A program made the translations under genes and the position numbers. From positions 1 through 39,815 of the IMG/VR virus record IMGVR_UViG_3300047166_000010: a stretch of 39,815 nucleotides of DNA. One strand, written 5' to 3'. The notes beneath the pieces were generated by a model. That model saw only the letters and a program-made list of their open reading frames with translations, ran no database searches and was not told where the DNA came from. Of the stretch, positions 21,852 through 23,039 are shown piece by piece. Numbering within the stretch: the stretch's first letter is position 1; each line of letters opens with the position of its first letter. Origin of the DNA: a virus.

Positions 21852-22049
21852 CTACTGCGCCACCTCGCGCACGATGAGATATTGGTGAGAGTGCACCCAC
21901 ATGTCGGCACTCGCGCCGGCTGAGAGTGAGTAGGGCGGCCCGGCGCGATTGTCCGGTTCACCGGCGCCAACGTTCATGGTGGTGATACTGATAACCGCAC
22001 TGTCGCGCGAGTCGTCATTTTTAATAATCACTTTAATGGTCATGTGCAT
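21852..22049 (-). CDS. small conserved phage protein, unknown
   Basis: 65 residues (possibly starting at the second Met). Pattern TIKVIIKNDDSRDSAVISIT, GGPPYSLSAG-like turn, ADMWVHSHQYLIVREVAQ: a single beta-sandwich domain recurrent in phage early operons. Its 5' end overlaps the methyltransferase 3' end by 17 bases. No function known. Confidence 0.6.
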   Translation of the reverse strand: MHMTIKVIIKNDDSRDSAVISITTMNVGAGEPDNRAGPPYSLSAGASADMWVHSHQYLIVREVAQ

Positions 22050-22725
22050 GCCTCATGATTGCGTGGCCGATGAGCGTGACGACTTGCGGGACAACGGCAT
22101 TTCCCAGTGCTCTAAGACGGTCCACCCGATGGGGTAGCCCATCAGCCATTCCACCCATAACGGGCTCAGGTGGCCACTCAGTTGACGCAACCGGCGCCCG
22201 CCCTTCCAACAATTCGCATCCGGGGTGTAATACATTGGCTTCGTAAGCGATGATAAACACGCGGTCTCTGACGTGGCGGGCACCCACGGCGCTAGCCGGT
22301 ATGCAGTGCCATTCCGCGTCATACCCGATCGCGGCCAGGTCTCCGAGAACTCGGCTAATTCCCCGGTTAAGCAAACTTGGGACGTTCTCCACGATGACGT
22401 AGTGCGGTCGTAGTTCGCCAATGAGCCGCGCAAACTCCGACCATAGCCCACTGCGCGCCCCTGTAATGCCAGCACCGGCGCCAATGGCGCTAATGTCTTG
22501 ACAAGGGAATCCGCCGGTAATGCACTCGACGCCGATGCCGGCAAGTCTAAGACTAGCTGCGTTGAGTTCGCGGATGTCTGGATAGCAGGGGACGTGCGGC
22601 CAATGCTTAGCGAGCACGGCGCGACAGTAGGGGTCGAATTCGCAGAAGGCGACAGGGATAAATCCGGCGGGTTCAAGTCCGAGAGCGAAGCCGCCAATTC
22701 CAGAGAATAGGTCAAGGGTGCGCAC
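22033..22725 (-). CDS. DNA cytosine-5 methyltransferase (orphan)
   Basis: 230 residues from GTG. Motif I LFSGIGGF (6-13), motif IV GGFPCQDIS with catalytic Cys75, motif VI ENVPS (113-117), motif VIII GARHVRDRVFI and motif X RALGNAVVPQ (205-214) are all present and in order. It transfers a methyl group from S-adenosylmethionine to cytosine C5. Only about 30 residues lie between motif VIII and the C-terminal block, so the target-recognition region is very short compared with bacterial enzymes of more than 300 residues. No restriction enzyme is adjacent, so it is an orphan, likely for anti-restriction or regulation. Directly follows Cro in the early operon. A second long frame overlaps it almost completely. 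Confidence 0.92.
   Translation of the reverse strand: MRTLDLFSGIGGFALGLEPAGFIPVAFCEFDPYCRAVLAKHWPHVPCYPDIRELNAASLRLAGIGVECITGGFPCQDISAIGAGAGITGARSGLWSEFARLIGELRPHYVIVENVPSLLNRGISRVLGDLAAIGYDAEWHCIPASAVGARHVRDRVFIIAYEANVLHPGCELLEGRAPVASTEWPPEPVMGGMADGLPHRVDRLRALGNAVVPQVVTLIGHAIMRHAHDH
22053..22715 (-). CDS. second open frame nested in the methyltransferase gene
   Basis: 220 codons on the same strand in another frame, from TTG (internal GTG and TTG starts also exist). The first 90 residues are Ser/Ala/Leu-rich. From about 95 it reads SLANYDRTTSSWRTSQVCLT, GELAEFSETWPRSGMTRNGT and later LSPLWVEWLMGYPIGWTVLE. I recall phage proteins with the same 'SSWKTSQ...FSETWPRSGM..NG...WVEWLMGFPxGWT' pattern encoded with cytosine methyltransferases. 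So this may be a genuine nested gene, or such database entries may themselves be shadows. Function unknown. The DNA of motif X doubles as its EMPLSRK segment. Confidence 0.4.
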   Translation of the reverse strand: MTYSLELAASLSDLNPPDLSLSPSANSTPTVAPCSLSIGRTSPAIQTSANSTQLVLDLPASASSALPADSLVKTLAPLAPVLALQGRAVGYGRSLRGSLANYDRTTSSWRTSQVCLTGELAEFSETWPRSGMTRNGTAYRLAPWVPATSETACLSSLTKPMYYTPDANCWKGGRRLRQLSGHLSPLWVEWLMGYPIGWTVLEHWEMPLSRKSSRSSATQS

Positions 22726-22727
22726 CT

Positions 22728-22955
22728 CTAGTTAGTCGCTTGCATGGCTTTGGCCTTCGGGTACTTGGGCGGGATTGAGTGCACGTAGTCGGCGGGGTTC
22801 ACGCGAAGCTTGCCGCGCGAGAGAATTTCTAATTGATACGCGCGGCCCATCGGCACACGCTCACCCCACTGGCACACGGCGCTTATCGTAATTCCTAATG
22901 CATCGGCAGTGCCTTTGCATGACCCGTAATGCTGAATTACTTGCGCGCTTTTCAC
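22728..22955 (-). CDS. cro: Cro-like repressor (P22 Cro/DicC type)
   Basis: About 75 residues from the GTG whose position aligns with the P22 Cro start. The sequence VIQHYGSCKGTADALGITIS, AVCQWGERVPMGRAYQLEIL, SRGKLRV matches the DicC/P22-Cro helix-turn-helix, including the typical V-x-Q-W-x-E/R-x-V-P after the recognition helix. The frame stays open upstream with ATG at 23018 and TTG at 23039, so a longer form is possible. It leads the - strand early operon and would bind the divergent control region just upstream. No CI partner gene was found. Confidence 0.8.
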   Translation of the reverse strand: MKSAQVIQHYGSCKGTADALGITISAVCQWGERVPMGRAYQLEILSRGKLRVNPADYVHSIPPKYPKAKAMQATN

Positions 22956-23039
22956 ATAGCTAATTGTATGCCACACGTGCGCGGAAGTAGCTAGGTTTAC
23001 CGATGCCGGAGCGCTCATCACGCCGCGAGCGATTATCAA

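Follow-up and report, generated by a model that had tools for sequence, protein, structure and literature searches.

A phage C5-cytosine methyltransferase gene very probably encodes a second subunit in a nested +1 reading frame

We present evidence that a C5-cytosine DNA methyltransferase gene of viral origin very probably encodes two proteins in overlapping reading frames. In our judgement it is highly likely that these form a split methyltransferase of the M.EcoHK31I type, in which one subunit, referred to here as alpha, is accompanied by a second, beta, nested within the alpha gene. Frame 0 would give alpha, the catalytic half, with cofactor binding, the catalytic cysteine, motifs I-VIII and motif X, while the +1 frame would give beta, a protein of about 130 amino acids whose synthesis would start inside the same mRNA, probably at the GTG at position 22451. 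Alpha has an incomplete small DNA-recognition domain, which beta would complete with an N-terminal module, motif IX and a variable stretch for target recognition, and the two products of the one mRNA would assemble into a single active C5-methyltransferase. We infer the translation of beta, its start codon, its assembly with alpha and the dependence of activity on beta. So far as its role and target sequence can be inferred, the enzyme presumably protects phage DNA against host restriction, which is the usual role proposed for phage methyltransferases.

Results

The window (the whole stretch of 39,815 nucleotides that was analysed, positions 1-39815, from an IMG/VR virus record) contains genes for a P22-type portal, coat, scaffold, Erf, exonuclease, integrase and an O-like replication protein, a content that indicates a P22-like temperate phage or prophage. 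The stop codon of a regulator gene just precedes the start of alpha (Table 1), suggesting that translation of the two may be coupled. An earlier note on this DNA, made from the letters alone, had described a 220-codon frame on the same strand as the enzyme, and the frame is present as described; its product contains the segments SSWRTSQ, FSETWPRSGMTRNG and WVEWLMGYPIGWT singled out there, as well as the peptide TSQVCLTGELAEFSETWPR, and its EMPLSRK segment and motif X of the enzyme are indeed the same DNA.

Table 1. Features of the methyltransferase locus (window coordinates)
Feature	Position	Strand	Description
Alpha, C5-cytosine DNA methyltransferase gene	22033..22725	-	230 codons/aa, GTG start; motifs I-VIII and X, without IX
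Nested open frame	22053..22715	-	+1 relative to the enzyme; 220 codons, TTG first
Likeliest beta CDS	22053..22451	-	GTG 22451 to stop, 132 aa; putative start
Candidate ribosome-binding site AGGGG	22458..22462	-	6 nt before GTG 22451; from sequence and duplex score, weak evidence
Beta N-module TTSSWRTSQ...FSETWPRSGMTRNGTAYRL	22299..22403	-	Overlaps alpha motifs VI-VIII; conserved in +1 across the family; strands predicted
Beta motif IX-like segment LSPLWVEWLMGYPIGWT	22119..22169	-	From alignment and profile match
Alpha motif I FSGIGG	22690..22707	-	From sequence
Alpha motif IV PCQ, catalytic Cys	22498..22506	-	From sequence
Alpha motif VI ENV	22381..22389	-	From sequence
Alpha motif VIII region RDRV	22258..22269	-	From sequence
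Alpha motif X ALGNAVVPQ	22084..22110	-	DNA shared with beta EMPLSRK
Upstream gene, transcriptional regulator, phrog_409	22728..23039	-	

One alternative is that the +1 frame is untranslated, its openness and conservation being dictated by the amino acids and codon usage of alpha. We consider this extremely unlikely, as synonymous shuffles of the gene never yield such runs: the longest +1 run in the enzyme gene is 223 codons, the mean after shuffling is 81 (with the gene's own codons) or 61 (with phage codon usage), and none of 5000 shuffles reached 223 in either scheme. The longest +1 runs in 11 other genes of the window are 33-113 codons.

Comparison with relatives also argues against an untranslated frame. 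For 18 disjoint pairs we classified each substitution according to what it changes in either frame, an OLGenie-like count in our own approximate implementation; our searches turned up no close relative of the window, and these tests of selection, made on more distant relatives, apply to the family rather than to the window's own lineage. The dN/dS of beta (dNN/dNS) is 0.97 (0.82-1.15) up to motif IV, 0.74 around motif VI, 0.43 (0.31-0.57) around motif VIII and 0.32 (0.27-0.38) after it; the value for five neighbouring control genes, in which synonymous change is saturated, is 0.81. Synonymous distance in alpha drops about threefold, from 1.16 to 0.33-0.36, while beta-silent change increases from 0.16 to 0.44, and after motif VIII it exceeds alpha-silent change (dNS 0.44, dSN 0.36). 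Beta in the last third of the gene is thus constrained at least as tightly as alpha in these relatives. Bins of 10 codons place the onset of the alpha-synonymous depression 20 codons past the motif IV cysteine and its end at about 180. Near motifs IX and X, identity in the +1 frame equals that of alpha (0.54 and 0.53), whereas the upstream values are 0.26 and 0.56. Over motifs VI-VIII, much of the resemblance in +1 does coincide with strongly conserved alpha residues, and to that extent accords with an untranslated frame.

The earlier note had supposed that, were both frames in use, relatives would be free of stops in the second frame and synonymous change in the enzyme frame would be depressed. 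Both hold from 20 codons past the cysteine. Across 68 loci selected with the enzyme, the +1 frame contains no stop in the 7480 codons from +20 to +129 past the catalytic cysteine, whereas the +2 frame has about 265 over the same core; +1 stops are present on both sides of it. Since selection sets in about 20 codons past the cysteine, the first 90 or so codons of the 220-codon frame probably lie outside the functional protein. The near-complete overlap of two genes that the note had envisaged therefore stands for the open frame, which spans it, but the overlap that matters covers about 58% of the gene.

We find that the nested frame recurs widely. The note's suggestion of a recurring phage protein type is borne out by a profile match of the product to PHROG 1008 (E=2.4e-21), and tblastn detected relatives in 166 phage records. 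Both frames were open, with the nested one always in +1, in all of the first eight phage relatives examined, whose hosts are as far apart as Synechococcus, Mycobacterium, Salmonella and Paenibacillus. Among 226 loci from phages, IMG/VR and bacterial genomes (many retrieved with beta as the query, and a few being single-chain relatives with a short +1 frame), 224 have beta in +1 relative to this enzyme, and the remaining two are frameshifted. A search with the enzyme frame gave 80 loci, all carrying the nested protein, although such a search is not fully independent of beta because the query DNA encodes both frames. For 72 non-identical loci chosen by alpha, the median share of the enzyme taken up by the longest run is 88% in +1 and 21% in +2, and this share exceeds 70% in 64 loci in +1 and in none in +2. 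Bacterial genomes with the pair span about ten phyla (Pseudomonadota, Bacteroidota, Spirochaetota, Gemmatimonadota, Planctomycetota, Verrucomicrobiota, Nitrospirota, Acidobacteriota, Bacillota and others); some of these loci may be prophages or binning errors.

Alpha carries the hallmarks of a C5-cytosine DNA methyltransferase, with motifs I, IV (PCQ), VI (ENV), VIII and X and a match to PF00145 (E=3.6e-40) that is confined to columns 1-163 of 324. Its profile matches to PF00145 and TIGR00675 end at columns 162-163, known C5-methyltransferase structures match its residues 1-165 only, and it also matches phrog_363 (E=1.6e-73). We found no motif IX in alpha, whose C-terminus carries motif X only. 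In M.HhaI-type enzymes, the variable region and motif IX both belong to the small domain, which reads the DNA (PMC3404938). Near its end beta has LSPLWVEWLMGYPIGWT, with a short tail behind it, and its LxPxWVEWLMGFPxGW pattern aligns with the motif IX pattern RxLxPRECARLMGFP of E. coli Dcm, phages KL3 and RB43, and M.HhaI; taken individually, the direct matches between beta and canonical motif IX are short and weak, and the assignment rests on the family as a whole.

Three features of that family point to motif IX. First, in one group of actinophage loci, largely encoding single-chain enzymes, alpha continues without a change of frame into a beta-like recognition segment and motifs IX and X. 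These open reading frames are matched by the beta profile with E down to 5e-9 (1.1e-8 by hhalign against the single-chain relatives), PF00145 extends to column 311 in two of them, and the predicted structure of one (pTM 0.78) aligns with the full length of M.HhaI (Z 20.3, rmsd 4.0, 258 residues). Second, in Streptomyces phage Samy and Gordonia phage GordTnk2 alpha stops after motif VIII, and the recognition region is encoded in the +1 frame together with motifs IX and X. Third, another lineage has a beta whose ending, RRMLPSEYEILQGFPEGWT or LTPPEKERLQGFPEGWT, is almost the same as LTPLECERLQGFPEGWT of single-ORF enzymes found in the same search. Sequence comparison thus indicates that the C-terminus of beta is homologous to the target-recognition and motif IX region of single-chain C5-methyltransferases. 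One nested pair of the second lineage, in a gammaproteobacterium, has an alpha that covers PF00145 columns 2-169 and a beta with a weak match to columns 173-295 (E=0.079).

These observations bear on a second alternative, that beta is a separate overprinted protein, for example an anti-restriction or regulatory one, and no part of the enzyme. Some findings fit it: window beta has no match in Pfam, NCBIfam or PADLOC, and the N-module persists in phages whose motif IX is already in frame 0. We nevertheless regard it as highly unlikely, because what alpha lacks is exactly motif IX, because the C-terminus of beta is related to that very region of single-chain enzymes, down to the endings of the second lineage, and because beta was never seen without alpha in the 226 loci. 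The earlier note had raised the prospect of homologs outside methyltransferase genes, and these loci include none; that beta has no independent homologs is what one would expect if it is, as is most likely, the enzyme's own missing part rather than an unrelated overprinted gene. Modelled alone with AlphaFold2, beta reached a pLDDT of 61.6, a low confidence, and a structure search returned no chain with a Z of 2 or more; we draw no conclusion from this model. A search of PDB sequences with the beta profile matched designed helical proteins only, which we set aside as chance.

The functional beta is probably shorter than 220 codons and likely runs from GTG 22451 to 22053, a product of 132 amino acids with a putative start. 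This GTG lies 17 codons past the motif IV cysteine and has an SD-like sequence with a dG of -5.7. The TTG at 22715 was rejected as the start: an SD-like GAGGTG is present there, but selection in relatives stops short of it. Relatives with stops further upstream have a GTG at +14 with a very strong Shine-Dalgarno sequence (dG -11.7), and in other lineages beta has an ATG at -27 to -25; since the position differs between lineages, the N-terminus of beta appears to be lineage-dependent and the start proposed for the window is provisional.

The features of the start also allow a third account, in which beta still belongs to the enzyme but arises when ribosomes translating alpha shift into +1, and not by internal initiation. 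It would suit the window, where the start of beta is weak, with a modest ribosome-binding site and no ATG, and genes of this family often switch between frames 0 and +1 along their length. We give it very little credence, however. A product shifted to +1 before motif VI would be without motifs VI and VIII, and frameshifting needs no Shine-Dalgarno sequence such as the strong one before the GTG at +14 in relatives with upstream stops. Internal initiation of a separate beta subunit remains our preferred reading.

Discussion

The architecture we describe has a known counterpart. In M.EcoHK31I the large subunit contains motifs I-VIII and X and the small subunit contains motif IX, and the other known natural split of a C5-methyltransferase is M.AquI (PMC3404938). 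The window pair resembles M.EcoHK31I in that alpha is without motif IX and beta has it, a likeness of described layout. The M.EcoHK31I enzyme was reportedly described by Lee, Kam and Shaw in 1995 as a two-polypeptide C5-methyltransferase recognizing YGGCCR. The gene for its small subunit lies inside the gene for the large one and uses a different frame, as in the window, and the near-complete nesting that had seemed unusual to the earlier note thus has a precedent. There are also differences: the window pair is a phage-borne orphan enzyme, its beta has in addition a variable stretch and a family-conserved N-module, and a predicted recognition domain has been reported in the large subunit of M.EcoHK31I, unlike in the window. 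The small subunit of M.AquI comprises motifs IX and X, whereas the window keeps X in alpha and so does not have that type of split; Samy and GordTnk2 do show an AquI-like layout. Another hidden frame inside a phage DNA methylase gene is the HNH element of ShiLan, a mobile insertion encoding an HNH endonuclease; we set this explanation aside for beta, which is no insertion and has no HNH match.

What is new is the breadth of the nested pair over phages and many bacterial phyla, the architecture itself being known and, apparently, much commoner than recognised. In the literature searched we came across no description of this overlap for phages, which does not prove absence. The record of Paenibacillus phage Shelly, a member of the same family, annotates a 'g55 internal gene' inside the methyltransferase gene with both frames listed, and neither this record nor PHROG 1008 gives a function beyond 'DNA methyltransferase'. 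GenBank phage annotation otherwise chooses one frame or the other, and records disagree about which is the gene: in L002, L004, L005 and L170 the CDS given corresponds in whole or in part to the beta frame and is called a hypothetical protein or methyltransferase domain protein. Because gene callers discard nested frames, one subunit is absent from most annotations here. That subunit would not be recognised as belonging to the enzyme and would be left behind in cloning, and phage methyltransferases described as 'inactive' may simply be without beta.

A broader proposition is that the nested +1 subunit is ancient and near-universal in a large clade of phage C5-methyltransferases found across many bacterial phyla, and that the N-module has a function of its own even where motif IX is back in the alpha frame. 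We put this forward tentatively, as something close to an even prospect but falling a little short of it. If the near-universal reading is true, many annotated single-chain orphan methyltransferases are half an enzyme. That several single-chain actinophage enzymes keep a shortened +1 frame suggests that beta may act beyond supplying motif IX; the retained N-module could either work by itself or be joined by a frame switch to the frame-0 recognition region. Between close actinophage pairs, alpha-synonymous change is lower over motifs VI-VIII than to each side of them (0.08, against 0.26 and 0.36, for L189 and L195, for example), a suggestive signal that comes from close pairs and that four disjoint pairs, pooled, do not settle. 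The family is in any case a natural set of hundreds of dual-coding pairs with a moved frame boundary, useful for studying the origin and constraint of overlapping genes.

Lastly, we note several individual loci. In single-chain actinophage enzymes (L185 and L188-L195) motif IX is in frame 0, and the shortened +1 frame, a SETWPxSGMTxxG module, lies over motifs VI-VIII. A single indel swaps the frames in L058, L064 and L072, joining the N-terminal part of alpha to the C-terminal part of beta or the reverse; these may be sequencing errors or decaying genes, and we left them out as evidence of natural fusions. In an E. coli PCP07014 prophage (L233, 1501-2278) RefSeq marks alpha as a pseudogene with an internal stop, and a stop at almost the same position interrupts beta, so that both frames are broken together. 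The gammaproteobacterial pair with the weak PF00145 match in beta (L249, 3812-6397) is part of a restriction-modification locus, in which a weak EVE-like gene and the nested alpha and beta sit beside a convergent type II restriction enzyme (PADLOC, E=2.8e-98), and which adjoins an integrase-like gene. In L077 and L079 (1292-2662) a 457-codon beta frame lies inside a 503-codon alpha and contains repeated LWxTPxAxD-like blocks, and the variable region seems to grow there by the addition of such blocks in the beta frame.
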